Below, one piece after another: positions 1 to 12,861 of a stretch of 64,000 nt of DNA (position 1 is its first letter; every line of letters begins with the position of its first letter). The translations under genes and the position numbers were made by a program. This stretch comes from Novosphingobium sp. (GTDB taxonomy: Bacteria; Pseudomonadota; Alphaproteobacteria; Sphingomonadales; Sphingomonadaceae): positions 186,001 to 250,000 of the forward strand of contig NZ_JAUYNB010000038.1 in NCBI RefSeq assembly GCF_030699305.1, read 5' to 3'. Under the pieces are notes generated by a model, which did no database searches, was not told the DNA's origin, and was given only the letters and a program-made list of their open reading frames with translations.

Positions 1-124
1 CGATGATCTCGCCGGAGCTGTCATTGCTTTCGGCGCTTGGCAAAGCGTCCTGCGCGAGTGCGGTGGTGGCGCCAAATCCCATCAGCATGGTAGCGCCAAG
101 CAGCGTGTTGCGGAACAATTTCAT
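1..124 (-). CDS. TonB-dependent receptor, N-terminal part only (runs off left edge of window)
   Basis: Reverse strand from ATG at 124..122 translates MKLFRNTLLGATMLMGFGATTALAQDALPSAESNDSSGEII: signal peptide followed by the start of a typical receptor plug lead-in. Confidence 0.6.
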   Translation of the reverse strand, partial: MKLFRNTLLGATMLMGFGATTALAQDALPSAESNDSSGEII

Positions 125-690: not shown

Positions 691-918
691 CATCGTCCGT
701 CACGCGGGCTTTCATCACAGCAGGCCCGGCAGGCCGGGGAATCGGGGATTGCGCGCTACGGGCAGGGATCCGCTGGACCAACCGGGCGCGCAGCGCGGCG
801 ATCGAGGGCTGTCACCCTCAAGGCCGCAACGTTATTACCCTTTCTTGAGATGGTAATATTTTTTGATGGACAAGAGTCAGGACTGTGGTGATGCTGCAGT
901 GCGAAAGGAAATCGAATC

Positions 919-2001
919 ATGATCAAGCTGGTTGGCAAATTCGGCGCTGGGGTGCTGATGGCTGGAGCGCTCATGCTGACAGCCTGTTCGCAGTCGTCCG
1001 CGCCCGAAACGGAGCAGCGCACGGAATTCAACATCGGCTGGTCGATCTATGCCGGATGGATGCCCTGGCCCTATGCCCAGCAAGCCGGGATCGTGAAGAA
1101 ATGGGGCGACAAATACGGCATCAAGATCAATCTTGTGCAGGTCAACGACTACGTTGAATCGGTCAACCAGTACACCGCCGGCAAGTTTGACGGCGTGACC
1201 GTGACCAACATGGACGCCCTCACGATTCCTGCGGCTGGCGGCAAAGACACCAGCGCCATTATTGTCGGCGATTATTCGAACGGCAATGATGGCATCCTGC
1301 TGAAGGACGCGACTTCGCTCAGCGCGATCAAGAACCGCTCGATCTATCTGGTCGAGCTGTCGGTCTCGCACTATCTGCTGGCGCGCGGGCTGGAAAAGGC
1401 CGGTCTGAAATCCACCGACGTCAAGACGATCAACACGTCCGACGCCGACATCGTCAGCGCCTTCGGGTCGCCGGATGTCACCGCAGCCGTGACGTGGAAC
1501 CCGCAACTCTCGGTCATGAAAGCCACGCCGGGGGCGAACCTGGTGTTCAGCTCGGCCGATATTCCGGGCGAAATTCTTGACCTCATGGTCGTCGACACCG
1601 CCACGCTCAAGGCCAACCCGAACCTTGGCAAGGCGCTCGCCGGCATCTGGTACGAGACGGTTGCGCTGATGCAGCGTCAGGATGCGCAAGGCAAGGCGGC
1701 CCGCGCGGCGATGGCCAAACTGTCCGGCGCGACGCCCGAAATGTTCGACGCCCAGCTTGCGACGACATTCCTTTATACCGATCCCAAGGCTGGCGTCGCG
1801 GCCACAGTATCGCCCGCGCTGGTCTCGACCATGACGCTGGTGCGCGATTTCAGCTTTTCGAAGGGCTTGTTCAACGGCGCGACGTCAGCCGACATGGTCG
1901 GAATCGGATTTCCCGGCGGGAAGACGCTTGGCGATCCCCAACGCGTGACGCTCCGCTTTGACGACAGCTTCATGCAGCTCGCCGCCGACGGAAAGCTCTG
2001 A
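919..2001 (+). CDS. ABC transporter substrate-binding lipoprotein (urea carboxylase-region / taurine-nitrate type)
   Basis: Lipoprotein signal (MLTACSQ), NIGWSIYAGWMPWPYAQQAGIVKKWGDKYGIKINLVQVNDYVESVNQYTAGKFDGVTVTNMDAL; first gene of carboxylase operon. Confidence 0.85.
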   Translation: MIKLVGKFGAGVLMAGALMLTACSQSSAPETEQRTEFNIGWSIYAGWMPWPYAQQAGIVKKWGDKYGIKINLVQVNDYVESVNQYTAGKFDGVTVTNMDALTIPAAGGKDTSAIIVGDYSNGNDGILLKDATSLSAIKNRSIYLVELSVSHYLLARGLEKAGLKSTDVKTINTSDADIVSAFGSPDVTAAVTWNPQLSVMKATPGANLVFSSADIPGEILDLMVVDTATLKANPNLGKALAGIWYETVALMQRQDAQGKAARAAMAKLSGATPEMFDAQLATTFLYTDPKAGVAATVSPALVSTMTLVRDFSFSKGLFNGATSADMVGIGFPGGKTLGDPQRVTLRFDDSFMQLAADGKL

Positions 2002-2038: not shown

Positions 2039-2854
2039 ATGCGTTGGGTAAACCGTCATGCAAGTCGGAGCGAGCGCATCCTGCTGGGTTCGCTGCCGAT
2101 CCTGTCGCTGGTGCTGCTGTATCTGTTCGCGGCGGCCCAGCGCCATGCCGCCAACCCGGTGGACAAGATCCTGCCGCTGCCCGCCAGCATGGCCCGCAGC
2201 ATGTATGCGTTGATGTTCCAGGCTGACCAGCTCAGCGGACAGTTCGTGTTCTGGGTTGATACGCTGGCCAGCCTGCAGCGGCTTGGCCTGGGACTGGGGA
2301 TCGCAACGGTCACGGCGTTGATTGTCGGGCTGGTGCTGGGAGTGCTGCCGCCGGTGCGGGCCACGCTGGGGCCGTTGGTGACGGGCATCGCGGTCATTCC
2401 CCCAATCGCTTTGCTCCCGATCCTGTTTATTGCCCTGGGGCTTGGGGAAACAGCGAAGGTTGCGCTGATCGTCATCGGGATCGCCCCGGTCATGGTGCGC
2501 GACATCGCCGCCCATGTCGCCGCCCTGCCAGCCGAACAGATCGTCAAGGCGCAGACGCTGGGGGCCAGTTCCTGGCAGATCATGATCCGGGTCGCGCTGC
2601 CGCAAGCCATGCCGCGCCTGATCCAGACGGTGCGACTTTCGCTCGGCCCGGCCTGGGTGTTCCTGATTTCGGCCGAGGCGATCGCGTCGGATGTCGGGCT
2701 TGGTTACCGGATATTCCTCGTCCGGCGCTATCTCTCGATGGACGTGATCATCCCTTACGTGGCGTGGATCGCGCTGCTGGCGATCCTGATGGACGTGATG
2801 CTTGCCCGCCTCAGCAAACGCGGGTTTCCGTGGGCGCACGGAGCAAGCCATTGA
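2039..2854 (+). CDS. ABC transporter permease
   Basis: Multi-TM protein with binding-protein-dependent transport motif (EQIVKAQTLGASSWQIMIRVALPQAMPRLIQTVR). Confidence 0.85.
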   Translation: MRWVNRHASRSERILLGSLPILSLVLLYLFAAAQRHAANPVDKILPLPASMARSMYALMFQADQLSGQFVFWVDTLASLQRLGLGLGIATVTALIVGLVLGVLPPVRATLGPLVTGIAVIPPIALLPILFIALGLGETAKVALIVIGIAPVMVRDIAAHVAALPAEQIVKAQTLGASSWQIMIRVALPQAMPRLIQTVRLSLGPAWVFLISAEAIASDVGLGYRIFLVRRYLSMDVIIPYVAWIALLAILMDVMLARLSKRGFPWAHGASH

Positions 2855-3645
2855 GCGACCATCCCGCCCCCATCCTGAGCCTGCAGAACGTCTGGGTCGA
2901 ATATGGCGACAAGATCGTGCTCGAGAAGGTCGACCTTGATATCGCGGAGGGCTCGTTCGTCTCGATCATCGGACCTTCGGGCGCGGGCAAGAGCAGTCTG
3001 CTGCGGCTCATCCTGGGTCAGGAGCGTCCTACCCGGGGGAAGATCATGCTTGATGGCCGGCCGCTCGCCCCCGAATGCGGGCCGGACCGGGGCGTCGTTT
3101 TCCAGCGCTATTCGGTGTTCCCGCACTTGTCGGTGCTGGGCAACACGGTGTTCGGACTGGAATGTGAACAGGCGCCGCTGCTCGCGCGGCTGTTCGGCTT
3201 CGCCCGCCGGGCAGCCACGGCCGAAGCGACCGAGATGCTGAACGCGGTCGGCCTGGGCAATTCCCTGCATCAGTACCCCGCGCAGCTTTCGGGCGGCATG
3301 CAGCAGCGGCTGGCCATCGCGCAGGCCCTGATCAAGCGCCCCCGCATCCTGTTGCTCGATGAACCGTTCGGTGCGCTCGATCCCGGCATCCGGGCCGATA
3401 TGCATGGCCTGATCAAGCAGCTGTGGCGCGATTATGCACTGACGATCATCATGGTAACGCACGATATCCGTGAGGCATTCACGCTTGGTACGCGGGTCCT
3501 CGCGCTCGACAAACGCCGCCACGATCCGCACGCGCCGCATCGCTTCGGTGCGACCGCAGTCTATGATCTTGCCCTGCGCGGCGACGCCGATCCCGCGGCG
3601 GCCGAAGCCTTGTCCGTTTCACTCAACCAAGTTTCCAGCAGCTAG
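2851..3645 (+). CDS. ABC transporter ATP-binding protein (TTG start overlapping upstream stop)
   Basis: Walker A GPSGAGKSS, signature LSGGMQQRLAIAQAL, Walker B ILLLDEPFGALD. Confidence 0.9.
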   Translation: MSDHPAPILSLQNVWVEYGDKIVLEKVDLDIAEGSFVSIIGPSGAGKSSLLRLILGQERPTRGKIMLDGRPLAPECGPDRGVVFQRYSVFPHLSVLGNTVFGLECEQAPLLARLFGFARRAATAEATEMLNAVGLGNSLHQYPAQLSGGMQQRLAIAQALIKRPRILLLDEPFGALDPGIRADMHGLIKQLWRDYALTIIMVTHDIREAFTLGTRVLALDKRRHDPHAPHRFGATAVYDLALRGDADPAAAEALSVSLNQVSSS

Positions 3646-3658
3646 AAGAGGCCCCACC

Positions 3659-4135
3659 GTGAGCACCGAACCTGCAAGCCTCGCCCGGCTCTCGATGAGC
3701 CTCCCCGCCGCACTGTTCCGGCAGCTCGACACCATGGTGGAGGAACGCGGTCTGCCCTCGCGCTCCCAGCTGATCGCCGAACTGATCCGCCATGCCCTGG
3801 CGGAACACGAAGCCTACACCCGTCCGGAAGAGATGCTCGCGGGGACCATCACCATCGTCTACCGCGGCGATCGCGGCCGCGTGCGCCATCAGCTGGCCCA
3901 GACGCAGGCCGAATATCTCAAAGAGGTCATCTCCTCCCAGCACGTCTTCCTTGAAGATGACCAGTCGCTGGAAGTCCTGCTGGTGCAAGCCCCCGCCGTG
4001 CGGCTGAAAGACCTGTGCGATGCGCTGCGCCGGGTGCGCGGGGTGCATCAGCTCCAGCTTGTCACCACCACCGCACTACTGCCGCCGCTGCATGAGCCGG
4101 ACGGCAGCGAACTTGCCGAAGGAGCCGCCGCATGA
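3659..4135 (+). CDS. NikR/CopG-like ribbon-helix-helix regulator with degenerate metal site
   Basis: N-terminal RHH (LSMSLPAALFRQLDTMVEERGLPSRSQLIAELIRHAL) and NikR-like ACT domain; aligns without gaps to E. coli NikR residues 58-101. Confidence 0.8.
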   Translation: MSTEPASLARLSMSLPAALFRQLDTMVEERGLPSRSQLIAELIRHALAEHEAYTRPEEMLAGTITIVYRGDRGRVRHQLAQTQAEYLKEVISSQHVFLEDDQSLEVLLVQAPAVRLKDLCDALRRVRGVHQLQLVTTTALLPPLHEPDGSELAEGAAA

Positions 4136-4956
4136 GTGCCATCCTTGCCGATCCCAAGTCCGCCCGCGATCACGCCCGCAGCATGGCTGGCACCGTGGTC
4201 GATGCCATGCCGGTGCTGCCACCAGTTGCCGATGACTTGCCCGCCGACGTGCCGGCCAGCGAACTGGTGTGGGAAGAGACCATCGCGGCGGGCGGCTACG
4301 CGACCCGGCGGCTGGGGCGGGGCACGCGGCTGCGGCTGATCGACCTGCAGGGCGATGCCTGCGCGTCGCTGCTGTTGTTCAACGCCGAACTGCCGAGCGA
4401 ACGGCTCAACGTCGCTGACACGGTCAAGGTCCAGTGGAACGCCTATCTTGGGCAGGGCAAGCTGCTGCTGTCCGATATGGGCCGCGTGCTGATGAGCTTT
4501 CTTGAGGACAGCGCAGGCACGCACGATGCGTTCTGCGGAACGTCCAACGCGGCAACCAACGCTGCGAAATATGGTGAAGGCCGCAACAGCGGCTCCTGTC
4601 CCAGCGGACGCGACCGCTTCCTCCTCGGCGCGGCAAAGCATGGGTTGCAGCGCCGCGATGTCCATCCTTGCGTGAACCTGTTCAAAGGCGCGGCAATTGC
4701 GGCGGACGGCACGATCGTTCCGCAGGTCGGTCCGTTTGCACCGGGCCGCAGCGTCATTCTGCGCGCCGAGATGGATGTAATCGTCGTGATCGCCAATTGC
4801 CCGCACGTGCTGGACCCGCGCGCGGCCTGGACGGTGTCGCCGCTGCGGGCGACCGCCTGGCGCGGACCGGCAACGCCTGAAGACGATCCTGTCCGGATGG
4901 CGACACCCGAAGGGCTGCGTGCCTTCCTGAACGTCGAAGACTATTTCCGCCGCTGA
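4132..4956 (+). CDS. DUF1989 / urea carboxylase-associated protein; likely carboxyguanidine deiminase subunit (CgdAB type)
   Basis: GTRLRLIDLQGDACASLLLFNA..., CPSGRDRFLLGAAKHGLQRRDVHPCVNLFKG; paired with downstream DUF1989 gene and carboxylase. Confidence 0.8.
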   Translation: MSAILADPKSARDHARSMAGTVVDAMPVLPPVADDLPADVPASELVWEETIAAGGYATRRLGRGTRLRLIDLQGDACASLLLFNAELPSERLNVADTVKVQWNAYLGQGKLLLSDMGRVLMSFLEDSAGTHDAFCGTSNAATNAAKYGEGRNSGSCPSGRDRFLLGAAKHGLQRRDVHPCVNLFKGAAIAADGTIVPQVGPFAPGRSVILRAEMDVIVVIANCPHVLDPRAAWTVSPLRATAWRGPATPEDDPVRMATPEGLRAFLNVEDYFRR

Positions 4957-4988: not shown

Positions 4989-5624
4989 ATGAGCGCCGAT
5001 CCCCATCTCTCCGGCCTGTCCGGCTCCGTTCTTCACGATGTGATCGTGCCCGCGCGGGCACCGTGGCTGCATCATCTCGCGGCCGGGCAGACGCTGCGGA
5101 TTGTCGATCTGGAAGGCAACCAGGCCGTCGATTTCCTGCTTTACGCCACTGCCGATGATGCCGAGCGATACAGCGCCCAGGACACAGTGGCAGCGCAAGG
5201 CAACCTGTTCCTGCGCAAAGGCACGGTGCTGCGATCGAACGAAGGCCGGCCGATGATGGTCATCGCCGCCACGTCGGTCGATTACCACGATACCATCGGC
5301 GGGGCTTGCTCGTGCGAGTCCAACACGCTGCGTTACGGCCACCACACCAAGGCCGAGCACGCCTGCGTCGAGAACTTCCTGGAGGCGAACCTGCGGGAAG
5401 GGCGCGGCAAACGCGACATCGTCTCCAACATCAACTTCTTCATGAACGTGCCGGTCGAACCGGATGGATCGCTGGGCATTGTTGACGGGATTTCCGCGCC
5501 GGGGCTTACCGTGGACTTGCGCGCCGAGATGGACGTCACCGTGGTCGTGTCCAACTGCCCGCAGATCAACAACCCCTGCAACGGCTTCAATCCAACCCCC
5601 GTCCGCATGATTGTCGCCGCATGA
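4989..5624 (+). CDS. DUF1989 / urea carboxylase-associated protein; likely carboxyguanidine deiminase subunit (CgdAB type)
   Basis: LAAGQTLRIVDLEGNQAVDFLLYATADDAERYSAQDT..., CVENFLEANLREGRGKRDIVSNINFFMNVPVEPDG. Confidence 0.8.
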   Translation: MSADPHLSGLSGSVLHDVIVPARAPWLHHLAAGQTLRIVDLEGNQAVDFLLYATADDAERYSAQDTVAAQGNLFLRKGTVLRSNEGRPMMVIAATSVDYHDTIGGACSCESNTLRYGHHTKAEHACVENFLEANLREGRGKRDIVSNINFFMNVPVEPDGSLGIVDGISAPGLTVDLRAEMDVTVVVSNCPQINNPCNGFNPTPVRMIVAA

Positions 5625-8600
5625 GCTTCGACACGGTTCTCATTGCCAACCGCGGCGCAATTGCCACGCGGATCATTCGCACCTTGCGGCGCATGGGGCT
5701 GCGCTCTGTCGCGGTCTATTCGGACGCCGATGTGGACTCGCTGCATGTGGCCCTGGCGGACGAAGCCGTATGCATCGGCGGCGCCCGGGCCACGGAGAGC
5801 TATCTCAACGTCGCCGCGATCCTTGACGCAGCGCGCAAGACCGGCGCCGGGGCGATTCATCCCGGCTATGGCTTTCTGGCCGAAAACGCCGAATTTGCCG
5901 AGGCTTGCGCCGGGGCGGGGATCGTGTTCATCGGCCCGACGCCGGACAACATCCGCACCTTCGGCCTGAAGCACAGCGCGCGCGCGCTCGCCGCTGCCCA
6001 CGGGGTGCCGCTGGCACCGGGCACCGACCTGCTCACCGATGAAGCCGAAGCGGCCCGCGCCGCGCAGGAGATCGGCTTCCCGATCATGCTGAAAGCAACC
6101 GCAGGCGGCGGCGGCATCGGCATGCGCATTTGCGAGAACGAAGCCGACGTCCGCGAAGGCTTTGCCGCCGTCGCCCGTCAGGGGCTGGGCAACTTCGGCG
6201 ATGCCGGGGTGTTCCTTGAACGCTATATCCGCAAGGCCCGGCACATCGAGGTCCAGATCTTCGGTGACGGCCAGGGCCGGATCGCGGCGCTTGGCGAACG
6301 CGATTGCTCGCTCCAGCGCCGCAACCAGAAAGTGGTTGAAGAGGCCCCGGCGCCGCTGCTGCCGCCCGCCGTGCGTGCCGGGCTGATTGCCGCTGCGATC
6401 CAGCTGGGCGAGGCTGCGCGCTATCAGTCGGCCGGCACGGTCGAGTTCCTGTACGACGCCGAGCGCCAGGAGTTTTTCTTCCTTGAAATGAACACCCGCC
6501 TGCAGGTCGAACACGGCGTGACCGAAGAGGTCATGGGTATCGACCTGGTCGAATGGATGGTGCGCGGCGGGCTGGCGGATTACAGCTTCCTGGACACCGC
6601 CCCGACAGAACCGGTCGGCCATTCGGTGCAAGTGCGGCTGTACGCCGAAGATCCCGCGCTCGATTATCGTCCGACATCGGGCACGCTGACCGCCGTGGAT
6701 TTTCCCGCCAACATCCGTGCGGAAACATGGTGCATGGCCGGTAGCACCGTCAGCATCTGGTATGATCCGATGCTGGCCAAGCTGATCGTTCACGCGCCGA
6801 CCCGCGAAGCAGCCGTGACGGCCATGCAGACCGCGCTGGAGCACAGCCGGGTCGATGGCATCGAAACGAACCTGCGGTGGCTGCGCGATGTGGTCCGATC
6901 GCCCGCGTTCGTCAGCGGCGAGGTGTCCACCCGCGCGCTTGATACGGTCGCCTATCAGCCCCGCAGCATCCAGGTGATCAGCGGCGGCACTGCCACGACC
7001 GTGCAGGATTGGCCGGGCCGGCAGAGCCTCTGGTCGGTCGGGGTTCCGCCGTCCGGGCCGATGGACGATCAATCGTTCCGGCTTGGCAACCGCCTGCTGG
7101 GCAATCCCGAAGGCACGACCGGGCTTGAAGTAACGATCACCGGGCCGACGCTTCTGTTCAACGCGCCGGGCTCCATTTGCCTGACGGGCGCCGATTTCGG
7201 GGCAACGCTGGACGGCGAACCGGTTCAGCGCGGTGTGCCGATTGCGGTCGCCGCCGGTCAGACGCTGGCGCTTGGCCGGATTTCGGGCGGCGGTATGCGC
7301 GGCTATATCCTGTTCGCGGGCGGACTGGACATTGCGCCTTATCTCGGTAGCCGCAGCACTTTCGAGCTTGGGCAATTCGGTGGCCATGCCGCGCGCCGCC
7401 TGCTGGCGGGCGATACGCTCCATCTGGGCAGTGAGCGCACGGCCAGCGCGCTGGACGCGGCGGCGGCTCCGCTGCTCGCGAATGAATGGACCTTGCGCGT
7501 CCTCTATGGTCCGCACGGCGCGCCCGACTTTTTCACCGATGACGATGTCGACACTTTCGTCGCGGCCGAATGGCAGGTCCACTACAACAGCAATCGCACC
7601 GGCGTGCGCCTAATCGGCCCCAAGCCGCAGTGGGCGCGCAAGGACGGCGGCGAGGCCGGGCTGCATCCGTCCAACATCCACGACAATCCCTATGCCATTG
7701 GCGCGGTGGATTTCACCGGCGACATGCCGATCATCCTTGGTCCGGATGGCCCGTCGCTGGGCGGCTTTGTCTGCCCGTTTGTGGTCATCGCCGCCGATCG
7801 CTGGAAAATCGGCCAGCTGTCACCGGGTGACAAGCTGCGCTTCGCCCCGGTCAATGCCGAGGATGCTGTTGCAGCGGACACCCAGCAGCGCAGCCTGCTG
7901 GCGACCGGGAAGGGCTGCGTCGCCAGTCCGGCCCGGCCCATCAGCACGCTGTCACCGATCCTCTGCGAGATCGCAGCCGCGCAGCAGCGCCCGCGAACCG
8001 TCTATCGCCAGCAGGGTGATCGCAACATCCTGGTCGAATACGGGCCGATCGTGCTCGATATCGAGCTGCGCATCCGCGTGCAGGCACTGATGACCGAGCT
8101 TGAGCGGCTCGCCCTGCCTGGCGTGATCGACATCGTGCCGGGTATCCGCTCGCTGCAGTTCCATTTTGACGGCCAGACCATGACCCAAGGCGCGGCACTG
8201 GCCGCGCTGATCGCCGCCGAGGAGCGGCTGGGCGATCTGGAGGATTTCACCATCCCTTCACGCATCGTCCATCTGCCGCTCAGCTGGCGCGATCCGGCGA
8301 CGATTGAAACGATCGAGAAGTACATGGGCGCGGTGCGCGACGATGCGCCGTGGTGCCCGGACAACATCGAGTTCATCCGGCGGATCAACGGCCTGCCCGA
8401 TGTGGCGGCGGTCGAGAACCTGATCTTCGAGGCGAACTATCTCGTGCTGGGCCTGGGCGACGTTTACCTCGGCGCCCCGGTGGCAACGCCGGTCGATCCG
8501 CGCCACCGGCTGGTGACGACCAAGTACAACCCCGCCCGCACCTGGACGCCGCCCAATGTCGTCGGGATCGGCGGCGCCTATATGTGTATTTACGGCATGG

Positions 8601-9214
8601 AAGGTCCGGGCGGCTATCAGCTGTTCGGGCGCACGCTCCAGGTGTGGAATACCTATCGCCAGACCGATGCCTTCATCGAAGGCAAGCCGTGGTTGCTGCG
8701 CTTCTTCGACCAGATCCGGTTCTACCCGGTAAGCGCCGAAGAGCTGGCCGACTGGCGGCGGGACTTCCCCAGCGGACGGCGCTCGATCCAGATTGAGCCA
8801 AGCGAGTTCCGCCTCGCCGACTATCGGGCCTACCTGGCCGAAAATGCCGCATCGATCGCGACTTTCGAAGCCCGGCGGCAGGCCGCCTTTGACGAGGAAC
8901 GGGCCGAATGGCAGCGGCGCGGCGAGTTTGACCGCACCGACAGCGCCGAGGTCGAAGTGGTGGAAACTGGCGTGGTCGATGTGCCGGACGGTGCCGATCT
9001 GGTCGAAGCGCCGTTCGGCGGCAGCGTCTGGAAGATGCTGGTGGCGGTTGGCGACGTAGTGGCAGCTGGCGAGACAATCGCCATCATCGAGGCGATGAAG
9101 ATGGAATGCCGGATTGAAAGTCCGGGGGCAGGGACTGTCGCGGCGCTGTACGCTCAGGAACGCCAGCCGGTGCAACCCGGCGCGCCGATCCTCGCGCTGA
9201 CGAGGCACGCATGA
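5621..9214 (+). CDS. Urea/guanidine carboxylase (biotin carboxylase + KipI/KipA-like carboxyltransferase + biotinyl domain)
   Basis: 1197 aa; biotin carboxylase motifs (ANRGAIATRIIRTLRRMGL, EMNTRLQVEHGVTEEV), AHS1/AHS2 domains (GPSGPMDDQSFRLGNRLLGN; RQQGDRNILVEYG), C-terminal EAMKMECRI biotinylation motif. Confidence 0.93.
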   Translation: MSFDTVLIANRGAIATRIIRTLRRMGLRSVAVYSDADVDSLHVALADEAVCIGGARATESYLNVAAILDAARKTGAGAIHPGYGFLAENAEFAEACAGAGIVFIGPTPDNIRTFGLKHSARALAAAHGVPLAPGTDLLTDEAEAARAAQEIGFPIMLKATAGGGGIGMRICENEADVREGFAAVARQGLGNFGDAGVFLERYIRKARHIEVQIFGDGQGRIAALGERDCSLQRRNQKVVEEAPAPLLPPAVRAGLIAAAIQLGEAARYQSAGTVEFLYDAERQEFFFLEMNTRLQVEHGVTEEVMGIDLVEWMVRGGLADYSFLDTAPTEPVGHSVQVRLYAEDPALDYRPTSGTLTAVDFPANIRAETWCMAGSTVSIWYDPMLAKLIVHAPTREAAVTAMQTALEHSRVDGIETNLRWLRDVVRSPAFVSGEVSTRALDTVAYQPRSIQVISGGTATTVQDWPGRQSLWSVGVPPSGPMDDQSFRLGNRLLGNPEGTTGLEVTITGPTLLFNAPGSICLTGADFGATLDGEPVQRGVPIAVAAGQTLALGRISGGGMRGYILFAGGLDIAPYLGSRSTFELGQFGGHAARRLLAGDTLHLGSERTASALDAAAAPLLANEWTLRVLYGPHGAPDFFTDDDVDTFVAAEWQVHYNSNRTGVRLIGPKPQWARKDGGEAGLHPSNIHDNPYAIGAVDFTGDMPIILGPDGPSLGGFVCPFVVIAADRWKIGQLSPGDKLRFAPVNAEDAVAADTQQRSLLATGKGCVASPARPISTLSPILCEIAAAQQRPRTVYRQQGDRNILVEYGPIVLDIELRIRVQALMTELERLALPGVIDIVPGIRSLQFHFDGQTMTQGAALAALIAAEERLGDLEDFTIPSRIVHLPLSWRDPATIETIEKYMGAVRDDAPWCPDNIEFIRRINGLPDVAAVENLIFEANYLVLGLGDVYLGAPVATPVDPRHRLVTTKYNPARTWTPPNVVGIGGAYMCIYGMEGPGGYQLFGRTLQVWNTYRQTDAFIEGKPWLLRFFDQIRFYPVSAEELADWRRDFPSGRRSIQIEPSEFRLADYRAYLAENAASIATFEARRQAAFDEERAEWQRRGEFDRTDSAEVEVVETGVVDVPDGADLVEAPFGGSVWKMLVAVGDVVAAGETIAIIEAMKMECRIESPGAGTVAALYAQERQPVQPGAPILALTRHA

Positions 9215-10980
9215 CAATGCTGGACCGCCGCAGCGCAACAGCCATTGCCGCAGCCGTCAGCGCCGGACAGACCACTGCCGTCGCCGTGGCCGAGGAGACG
9301 CTGGCGCGCCTTGCCGCCTATGACCGCGTCCAGCCGCAGATCTGGATCAGCCGGGCGACGCCGGACGAACTGATCGCGGCCGCGCGCGCGATCGATGCCC
9401 GGATCGCGGCCGGCGAAGTGTTGCCGCTGGCCGGTGTCCCGTTTGCCGCGAAAGACAACATCGACGTTGCCGGATTTGAAACCACAGCGGCTTGCCCGGC
9501 CTTCGCCTATCGGCCCGAAGCGTCCGCCACGGTCATTGAACGGTTGCTGGCCGCTGGCGCATTGTGCGTGGGCAAGACCAATCTCGATCAGTTCGCCACT
9601 GGCCTGAACGGAACGCGCAGCCCCTATGGCAGCCCGCGCAACGCCTATAATCTGGCTTACGTCAGCGGTGGTTCAAGCTCAGGCTCTGCCTCCGCCGTGG
9701 CGGCGGGACTTGTCGCCTTCGCGCTGGGCACCGACACGGCGGGATCGGGCCGGGTTCCTGCAGCGTTCCAGCATCTGATCGGATTCAAGCCCAGCAAGGG
9801 GCGGTGGAGCAATCGCGGTCTGGTCCCGGCCTGCCGCACGCTTGATTGCATCACGATTTTTACCGACGATACCGCCGACGCGCGGCTGCTTGACCTGACG
9901 CTGGCCGGGTTCGATGCCGCCGACCCGTTTTCCAAGCCGCTGGCCAACCGCCCGCGCGGGCACAAGATGATCGGCGTCCCGCGCCGTGACCAGCGGATGT
10001 TTTTCGGCGATGCCGAAGCCGAATACCTGTATGATCGCGCGCTCGAAAAGTTCGCCGAACTCGGTGAACTGGTCGAGATCGATTATCAGCCGCTGCAAGA
10101 GGCGGCGCAGCTGTTGTACAGCGGGCCGTGGGTGGCCGAACGCACCGCTGCGACGGCCAGCATACTGGCTGATAACCCCGGCGCGATCGATCCGACCGTG
10201 CGCGAAATTGTCGCGGCTGGGCTGGATGTCAGCGCGGTGCAGTTGTTCGGCGGCATCTATCGCCTCGCCGAACTCAAGCGCCATGCCGACCAGTTGTGGG
10301 AAAGCATCGACCTGATGGTCTTCCCGACCACGGGCACGACATACCGCGTGGCCGAACTGCAAGCCTCGCCCATCGCACTCAATAGCGCGCTGGGGTTCTA
10401 TACGAACTTCGTGAACCTGCTCGACATGGCGGCAGTGGCGGTACCCGCCGGGAGCAGGTCGAACGCCACTGGTTTTGGCATCACCCTGATCGGTCCGGCC
10501 GATTCCGACATCGCCCTGCTCGGTGCAGCCGATGCCTATCTCTCGGTGGCCGCACTCCCCGCGCCGCCGCCACTCGATCTGGAGGGTAAAATGCAGACTG
10601 TGAAACTCGCCGTTGTCGGGGCGCACCTGAAGGATATGCCGCTGCACTGGCAACTGACCTCGCGCGGGGCAAAGTTCGTTGGCGCGTTCGAAACCGCGCC
10701 GACGTACCGGCTTTACGCCATGGCGGACAGCGTGCCGCCCAAGCCCGCGCTGGTTCACAGCGATGATGGCGGCGCGATCGCGGTCGAAGTCTACGAACTC
10801 GGCATCGCGGAATTCGGCAGCTTCGTGGTCGAAGTCCCGGCCCCGCTGGCCATCGGCACAGTGACGCTGGCCGATGGATCGAGCGTGAAGGGATTTGTCG
10901 CCGAGCCGCGCGCCTTGACCGGCGCACAGGACATTACCGACTTGGGCGGGTGGCGCGCCTACATTGCGCAGCGCACCTGA
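9211..10980 (+). CDS. atzF: Allophanate hydrolase (amidase-signature family)
   Basis: Amidase signature (AAKDNIDVAGFETTAACPAF, GGSSSGSASAVAAGLVAFALGTDTAGSGRVPAAF) plus C-terminal domain; translationally coupled to the carboxylase. Confidence 0.9.
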   Translation: MTMLDRRSATAIAAAVSAGQTTAVAVAEETLARLAAYDRVQPQIWISRATPDELIAAARAIDARIAAGEVLPLAGVPFAAKDNIDVAGFETTAACPAFAYRPEASATVIERLLAAGALCVGKTNLDQFATGLNGTRSPYGSPRNAYNLAYVSGGSSSGSASAVAAGLVAFALGTDTAGSGRVPAAFQHLIGFKPSKGRWSNRGLVPACRTLDCITIFTDDTADARLLDLTLAGFDAADPFSKPLANRPRGHKMIGVPRRDQRMFFGDAEAEYLYDRALEKFAELGELVEIDYQPLQEAAQLLYSGPWVAERTAATASILADNPGAIDPTVREIVAAGLDVSAVQLFGGIYRLAELKRHADQLWESIDLMVFPTTGTTYRVAELQASPIALNSALGFYTNFVNLLDMAAVAVPAGSRSNATGFGITLIGPADSDIALLGAADAYLSVAALPAPPPLDLEGKMQTVKLAVVGAHLKDMPLHWQLTSRGAKFVGAFETAPTYRLYAMADSVPPKPALVHSDDGGAIAVEVYELGIAEFGSFVVEVPAPLAIGTVTLADGSSVKGFVAEPRALTGAQDITDLGGWRAYIAQRT

Positions 10981-11017
10981 ATCCAGACCATTCATCAGCA
11001 CGACGAAAGGGCAATTG

Positions 11018-11947
11018 ATGCAAAAGCTTCAGAACATCGCCACGGCAATTGCGGCAGGCATTTCCGCGATCTCAGGCCCTGCGCTGGCACAGCCGGAAAA
11101 AGTGATCGAGGTTCCCGGCTTCGCGGACTTTCTGGCGGTTGACGGTGACAGTGTCTGGGCGACGAACGATGGCCGGGTCGAGCGTTGGTCGCGTGAGGGC
11201 AAAATTGCCGGGGTGGTCATGTCCAAACCCTGCGGCGCGATGACCGTTTCCGAAGGCAGCCTGTGGGTCGCCGATTGCAAGGAAGGCGCGCTTGTCCGGA
11301 TCGATACGCAGAAGGCCGAAAAGATCGCCACGATCCCCACCGGCATCGCCAATCCCAAGGGCGAGCTGAACGTCGTTGCCGGGGCGGGATCGATCTGGGT
11401 GGCCAGCGATCAGCGAGGGACCGTGGCACGGGTGGATCCCGCAACCAACGCGGTCATCGCGTCGATCGCGGTCAATCCCGGCACGCACTATCTGACTTTC
11501 GGCTTTGGATCGCTGTGGGCGGTCAGCAGTGAGAGCGGCGCGATCCAGCGCATCGATCCCGCGACCAACGCCGTCGTCAAGACGACCGCGCTGGGCAAGG
11601 AGCCCGGCTTTCTGGCTGCTGGCGAAGGCGCAGTCTGGGTTCAGGAACAAGGTGATGGCACCGTTGCGCGGATCGACCCGCACAGCGGCGATGTCACGGG
11701 CCGGGTCAAGGTTGGCGCCGTGCTGAAATACGGGGACATCGATACCGGCGCGGGCATGGTGTGGCTGCGCACCACCGAGGAGCAGACTTTCGTGGCGATC
11801 GATCCGCAGACGCTGGCGATCCGGGCGCGGGTGGGCAAGGCGGAAGGCAGCGGTGCGCTGCGCTTTGCCTGCAGCGGCGTGTGGACTTCGGCCCACGATG
11901 TGCACACCCTGACCTGGTGGCCGGATCCGCTTCAATACACGAAATGA
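11018..11947 (+). CDS. Exported beta-propeller (Vgb/NHL-like) protein
   Basis: Signal peptide, repeated SVWATNDGRVERW / SLWVADCKEGALVRID / SIWVASDQRGTVARVDPATNAV blades. Confidence 0.75.
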   Translation: MQKLQNIATAIAAGISAISGPALAQPEKVIEVPGFADFLAVDGDSVWATNDGRVERWSREGKIAGVVMSKPCGAMTVSEGSLWVADCKEGALVRIDTQKAEKIATIPTGIANPKGELNVVAGAGSIWVASDQRGTVARVDPATNAVIASIAVNPGTHYLTFGFGSLWAVSSESGAIQRIDPATNAVVKTTALGKEPGFLAAGEGAVWVQEQGDGTVARIDPHSGDVTGRVKVGAVLKYGDIDTGAGMVWLRTTEEQTFVAIDPQTLAIRARVGKAEGSGALRFACSGVWTSAHDVHTLTWWPDPLQYTK

Positions 11948-12369: not shown

Positions 12370-12486
12370 CTCCTGCGGAAAACGGACGCCGCTCTGTGGC
12401 AGCTGCCATCTCAATAGCAACAGGAGTTGAAAGTTTCAATACTAAACCAGCAATTGTTGTTTTATTACTCTACTGCACAAGGGTTA

Positions 12487-12861
12487 TTACTTCACCCGAA
12501 CAATCACCATCGCCAGGTTCTCTGCCTTGCCGAGCAAACCGATCGGCAATCTGGCATCGCGCGACACGCCTGCGACCGACACCGTGAGCGTCCGCGCATA
12601 AGGTACGGACCATGCGCGAACCGTCTCGACGGGTACGCGGACCCGCCAGCGGCGCGCGCCTTCGGCTGCCACCACATGGCCGTTTATGCTGATCGACGCA
12701 GTCGTGTCAGCGCGGCGGCCAGAGATCAGCAGGCAGCTTTCCGAACCACATTCGACCAGCCGCGCACTGGGTGCAGCGGGGTCTGTTGCCAATGCAGGCG
12801 CGGCGCTGGCGGCCGCCAGCAGTCCGCTCAGCACCAGCATGTTAAATCGTGCCATTGGCAT
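12487..12861 (-). CDS. Hypothetical exported protein
   Basis: Signal peptide MARFNMLVLSGLLAAASAAPALA; no family recognised. Confidence 0.5.
   Translation of the reverse strand: MPMARFNMLVLSGLLAAASAAPALATDPAAPSARLVECGSESCLLISGRRADTTASISINGHVVAAEGARRWRVRVPVETVRAWSVPYARTLTVSVAGVSRDARLPIGLLGKAENLAMVIVRVK

Follow-up and report, generated by a model that had tools for sequence, protein, structure and literature searches.

Introduction

What does a NikR-like regulator sense when its gene lies within an operon that needs biotin, not nickel? The question is raised by a gene of Novosphingobium sp. located in a 64,000-nucleotide stretch of contig NZ_JAUYNB010000038.1, the whole of which is called the window below. 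The ligand roles of the residues of the nickel site and the low-affinity site of NikR have been described, and the E. coli NikR box is GTATGA-N16-TCATAC (PMC7055735). NikR of H. pylori is both an activator and a repressor (PMC9860126). The guanidine-I riboswitch is specific for guanidine (PMC12508155). A preliminary description of the window had proposed that the regulator senses a signal linked to its pathway (guanidine, urea, carboxyguanidine or a nitrogen signal) and not nickel. Here, the regulator, its operon and its putative DNA sites are compared with those of their relatives, and the candidate ligands are weighed.

Results

Genetic context of the NikR-like gene

The gene order of the operon is SBP, permease, ATPase, regulator, two DUF1989 genes, biotin carboxylase and allophanate hydrolase. 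The features of the locus, in window coordinates, are as follows.

1 to 124, minus strand: TonB-dependent receptor, divergent, N-terminus (800 aa; extends left of the window)
519 to 544: predicted operator copy 1, TATTAC-N14-GTAATA (TATTACGAAATCCGTCAAGCGTAATA), towards the divergent TonB-dependent receptor gene
833 to 858: predicted operator copy 2, TATTAC-N14-GTAATA (TATTACCCTTTCTTGAGATGGTAATA), 86 bp upstream of the SBP start
867 to 895, plus strand: conserved promoter-like element TGGACA-N17-GATGCT, directly downstream of operator 2
919 to 2001, plus strand: ABC transporter substrate-binding protein (SBP) of urea/guanidine carboxylase operons (TIGR03427)
2039 to 2854, plus strand: ABC transporter permease (Pfam)
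2851 to 3645, plus strand: ABC transporter ATPase
3659 to 4135, plus strand: NikR-like RHH/NikR_C regulator (A84, H95, F97, S103), 158 aa, single ORF with a GTG start
4132 to 4956, plus strand: UAAP1/DUF1989, carboxyguanidine deiminase subunit type
4989 to 5624, plus strand: UAAP2/DUF1989, carboxyguanidine deiminase subunit type
5621 to 9214, plus strand: biotin-dependent carboxylase, annotated as urea carboxylase and of the guanidine-carboxylase type by its Asp
9211 to 10980, plus strand: allophanate hydrolase (AtzF)
11012 to 11947, plus strand: secreted beta-propeller protein, which adjoins the operon or the receptor gene in most Sphingomonad loci

The DUF1989 pair (CgdA/B) and the allophanate hydrolase gene adjoin that of the carboxylase. 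The carboxylase reads GAVDFTGD where the urea carboxylase of K. lactis reads GAINFTGD, and the Asp/Asn column is presumably the K. lactis N1330 position. According to a 2025 review, Asp marks guanidine carboxylases and Asn marks urea carboxylases (PMC12186494). Because of its Asp, the window enzyme was assigned to the guanidine type, and a urea-type carboxylase was rejected. This position is Asp in all 77 family loci, and the operon is conserved in all 77 regulator loci found in genome contigs, as far as the contigs reach. No urease alpha subunit was found in the genome of the window.

Linkage of the regulator to the pathway was also examined by gene content. Of 37 genomes in the genus of the window, 19 have both the regulator and the DUF1989 marker TIGR03424, and 17 lack both. 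The last genome, G014, has the DUF1989 pair only and no regulator. This UAAP1/UAAP2 pair (L186:14842-16311, minus strand) has no carboxylase, transporter or NikR-like gene nearby; with no carboxylase adjoining it, G014 was rejected as a DUF1989 carboxylase locus that lacks the regulator. Beyond the Sphingomonads, the regulator lies inside guanidine operons of Asticcacaulis, Acinetobacter, G343 and G725, and in those of six out of seven additional genomes, all of one other class. SMR transporter and 2OG oxygenase genes lie near the Acinetobacter operon, as is the case for methylguanidine operons (compare PMC12508155).

Nearly all members of the regulator clade are encoded in guanidine-carboxylase operons. 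The NikR-like gene of G774 lies beside a creatininase gene and a glutamine-synthetase-like gene, away from the carboxylase operon, and there is no carboxylase in the stretch read around the NikR-like genes of G765 and G1002. Given these three, ligand specificity may vary within the clade, and guanidine need not be what every member senses.

Several further observations were made at these loci. Seven of them (L152, L160, L161, L222, L223, L224 and L225) encode a creatininase-family hydrolase (PF02633), a type III glutamine-synthetase-like enzyme (TIGR03105) or both, either in the interval from the ABC transporter to the NikR-like gene or adjacent to the latter; most of these genes were confirmed by profile, and those of L222 and the creatininase of L161 were recognized by sequence motif only. 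The TonB-dependent receptor and the secreted beta-propeller protein travel with the guanidine operon in Sphingomonads, which suggests that guanidine or a guanidino compound is taken up across the outer membrane. Downstream, at 12464-12487 of the window, a direct repeat (TTATTACT-N14-TTATTACT) lies near two small minus-strand ORFs, and it recurs at a similar distance in many relatives; it is probably the site of another regulator.

Fold and former nickel site of the regulator

The window protein scores 70.3 bits against Pfam NikR_C (cut-off 22) and 26.1 bits against RHH_1 (cut-off 20.5). All NCBIfam NikR models match it, each below its own cut-off (92.8/105, 88.5/111, 61.1/119, 58.9/83 and 53.5/175 bits). 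In phmmer searches, its closest solved relative is P. horikoshii NikR (2bj1, 2e-24), and the NikRs of H. pylori and E. coli give poorer alignments. An AlphaFold model of moderate confidence (pLDDT 67), which informs the fold and not the ligand, has a C-terminal domain that matches NikR C-terminal domains with a TM of 0.85-0.91 and an rmsd of 1.5-2.0 Å. By these profile and model comparisons, the RHH DNA-binding domain and the NikR_C fold are retained. The preliminary description had likewise stated that the RHH domain is kept, in agreement with the RHH_1 score above the Pfam cut-off.

H76, H87, H89 and C95 of E. coli NikR align without gaps to A84, H95, F97 and S103 of the window protein, and the columns were confirmed by PDB alignments and by the HHHC of true NikRs. 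The same gapless alignment, with A, H, F and S in the ligand columns, had been given before and therefore holds. It had also been concluded that three of the four nickel ligands are lost, which proved to be an understatement, since the loss runs through a whole subfamily (118 aligned sequences, Sphingomonadales). In these, position 84 (the H76 column) is A, S, V, T, G or L and never His, position 95 (H87) is His in 118/118, position 97 (H89) is F or V, and position 103 (C95) is Ser in 118/118. The low-affinity (K+) site E30/D34 is Q/E in the window protein. The E30 column is Gln in all but one of the 118 sequences and Q, A or S across the clade, where K102 is replaced by Q.

More distant relatives (30-71% identity) have AHFS, GHFS, LHFS, YHHT, RHHT, QHQV, QHQI, HHHT, YNNT, SNNI, YHNT, HNNT or HQQT in the ligand columns, and the ligand Cys is absent from every one. 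True NikRs retrieved in the same searches keep HHHC, and nearly all of the 22 HHHC matches retain E30. Two distant members are HHHT (three His and Thr) and, judged from these residues, might bind metal weakly. The alignment was also checked for His/Cys ligands placed elsewhere, and no replacement set was found in the subfamily: conservation is limited to H50, H95 and, in most sequences, C120, of which only H95 is widely retained in distant clade members. An alternative conserved His/Cys metal site was accordingly rejected. The NikR_C sensory domain and the region of the former pocket are among the best conserved parts of the subfamily.

Relatives of the regulator and order of ligand losses

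In a tree of 61 proteins, built with the ligand columns left out, 21 NikR-like proteins from several proteobacterial groups form a single clade (support 100/96), whose sister is P. horikoshii NikR (support 98/86). The tree and alignment indicate that the Cys ligand was lost once in this clade and that further nickel ligands were then lost stepwise; the His losses are probably later than the Cys loss, because HHHT forms survive. Two NikR-like genes, one before and one after the transporter genes, are present in 21 of the 77 loci (including L035, L037 and L038), and the second copies show 75-85% identity to the window protein. A second NikR_C subfamily of the same genus (L156, L157, L158 and L177) also lacks the nickel ligands (H-T/A/L-V/R-S/T/G); its genes have no carboxylase neighbours, and some of its members have His-rich tails.

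Predicted operator

The divergent TonB-dependent receptor gene and the SBP gene are separated by an 800-bp region that holds two perfect palindromes, TATTAC-N14-GTAATA. Allowing at most one mismatch, these two copies are the only ones in the 3.36-Mb genome, and a chance origin was rejected by this whole-genome count and by shuffles. The site before the transporter (SBP) is exact in 76/77 related loci, its distance to the start codon is mostly 84-88 bp, and many related loci have an operator near or ahead of the regulator gene itself. Within the genus of the window, exact sites occur in 18/19 regulator-positive versus 0/18 regulator-negative genomes, and none lies more than about 10 kb from the regulator. 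Distant clade loci have a site within one mismatch in 12 of 14 cases (17 sites; about 0 expected by shuffling), and none of 16 true-NikR loci has it. Since the presence of the sites follows that of the regulator, whatever the species, the regulator very probably binds this palindrome. Both predicted operators fall within region 124-919, which had been proposed earlier for EMSA. The operators, and hence the putative regulon, are confined to the guanidine locus and include no nickel import or nickel-enzyme genes.

The NikR-like gene locus of G774 (L161) carries an exact E. coli-type box, GTATGA-N16-TCATAC, at 9869-9898. On this basis, the new operator may be seen as a NikR box in which the half-site geometry has been kept and the bases have changed. 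The G774 protein has Thr at the position of E. coli T5, and other clade members have Ser together with TATTAC boxes; this RHH-strand residue possibly covaries with the type of box. Two further operators were observed directly upstream of the beta-propeller gene at locus L190 (G015).

Promoters and sign of regulation

Downstream of the SBP operator, TGGACA-N17-RATGNTG was seen in 62/68 loci, with a spacing of 17 in all 62. A generic sigma-70 scan of 400-960 detected no promoter there, and the element is visible only by comparison across loci. The sign of regulation was inferred from promoter geometry. In the transporter promoter, the -10 element is poor and the operator centre lies at about -56 relative to the expected start near 902; together, these suggest activation by the regulator. 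On the receptor side, the spacer of operator 1 contains a TTGACG hexamer (minus strand); since the operator covers this hexamer, repression or autoregulation is suggested.

Distribution of guanidine riboswitches

At Rfam gathering scores, no riboswitch was found in the window, and a known RNA sensor at its operon was rejected. Neither guanidine-I nor guanidine-II was found in the genome of the window. For comparison, 19 genomes of Alphaproteobacteria were collected in which the urea/guanidine carboxylase is full-length or nearly so and a NikR-like gene is absent; 18 of them have a guanidine-I riboswitch (one just under the gathering score), and the exception, G296, has an Asn-type (urea) carboxylase. 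Guanidine-I or guanidine-II was found in 0/24 genomes with the Sphingomonad-type regulator, most of which belong to one family (Sphingomonadaceae), so that the comparison is not statistically independent. Four distant regulator operons have guanidine-II directly before the enzyme genes, and no guanidine-I was found in them. In G774, both riboswitches are on the carboxylase operon and the NikR-like gene is elsewhere. Because the distributions of the regulator and of guanidine-I are largely complementary, the regulator seems to fill, at the start of the operon, the role that guanidine-I has elsewhere.

Discussion

These comparisons support the earlier proposal that the regulator senses something linked to its pathway and not nickel: the Cys ligand was lost once, the gene is linked to D-type carboxylases, the operator is dedicated, the riboswitch distribution is complementary, and there is no urease alpha subunit. 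Among the ligands proposed at the time, guanidine is probably the best candidate. We propose, with a probability of about 0.7, that this descendant of NikR works independently of metal, serves as a transcription factor devoted to guanidine uptake and assimilation, has replaced the guanidine-I riboswitch and responds to guanidine or a derivative. In this model, a NikR-type tetramer would bridge the two half-sites of the operator and act ahead of the transporter gene, the divergent TonB-dependent receptor gene and, in many relatives, its own gene. Its activity would be set not by nickel but by guanidine or a closely related derivative, bound at the former nickel pocket or next to it, and the regulator would stand in for guanidine-I at the operon head. 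We lean, by a narrow measure, towards a bolder statement: that the clade comprises the first protein transcription factors to bind guanidine directly, its nickel pocket having become a pocket for guanidinium or a guanidino compound, and that these have replaced guanidine-I in Sphingomonads and some other proteobacteria.

The most serious alternative is that the regulator senses not guanidine but a pathway intermediate or the nitrogen status (carboxyguanidine, allophanate, urea, ammonium or glutamine). The members of G774, G765 and G1002 speak for it, as they lie beside a type III glutamine synthetase gene with no carboxylase in the stretch read; a creatininase-family gene is also present in G774 and G765, and a transporter in G765 and G1002. 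However, the regulator occupies the place of a guanidine-specific riboswitch, and its putative regulon is one uptake-plus-degradation operon, not a set of nitrogen-control genes; we therefore regard this alternative as rather unlikely. It is improbable that the protein is a ligand-free autorepressor that only sets the operon level while another factor provides induction. Operators near the regulator gene in many loci and the putative status of the pocket would fit such a role, but the sensory domain and the region of the former pocket are among the best conserved parts, and no other regulator or known riboswitch was found at the window operon. Least probable of all is a regulator that still responds to nickel through altered ligands, or to another ion, with an indirect link to guanidine: H95 is invariant in the subfamily and HHHT is kept in two distant members, but the Cys ligand is missing throughout the clade, the window subfamily has lost two of its three His columns and has a changed E30, no alternative His/Cys set is conserved, no urease alpha subunit was found in the genome, and the operon depends on biotin rather than nickel.

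Thus, the preferred reading is a NikR descendant dedicated to guanidine. It shares with the NikRs of P. horikoshii, E. coli and H. pylori the RHH and NikR_C architecture and fold, its nearest neighbour in the tree is the P. horikoshii protein, and its operator has half-site geometry like that of GTATGA-N16-TCATAC. It differs from them in lacking H76, H89 and C95, in the changes at E30 and K102 (to Q), in a C-terminal A-x-x-P tail, in its TATTAC-N14-GTAATA operator and in its putative targets, which are guanidine genes. Like the guanidine-I (ykkC) riboswitch, it is found with guanidine carboxylase operons and would act at their head; it is a protein, whereas guanidine-I is an RNA aptamer that is absent where the Sphingomonad-type regulator is present. 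The window operon has the gene set of known guanidine carboxylase operons (gca, cgdA/B, atzF and an ABC transporter) and the specificity Asp, but it contains a NikR-like gene in place of a guanidine-I riboswitch, and a TonB-dependent receptor gene and a beta-propeller gene are linked to it in Sphingomonads.

No paper connecting NikR with guanidine was found in literature searches that covered few subscription journals. Reviewers have deemed the existence of a protein guanidine sensor possible, and the clade described here is a concrete candidate, with an operator, a regulon and a path from a metal sensor. As far as sequence comparison can tell, it is a real and widespread branch of NikR that has lost the metal site and is devoted to the assimilation of guanidine; its predicted operator is very well defined, and it is a strong candidate for the first known guanidine sensor that is a protein and not an RNA. 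If so, a metabolite sensor would have been swapped from RNA to protein at the same operon, a metal site would have been turned into a site for an organic ligand or into another site, and the regulator could serve as a part for guanidine biosensors. The clade also cautions against annotating NikR_C proteins as nickel regulators. For Sphingomonads that carry no guanidine riboswitch, this regulator could be the means by which the use of guanidine is controlled.
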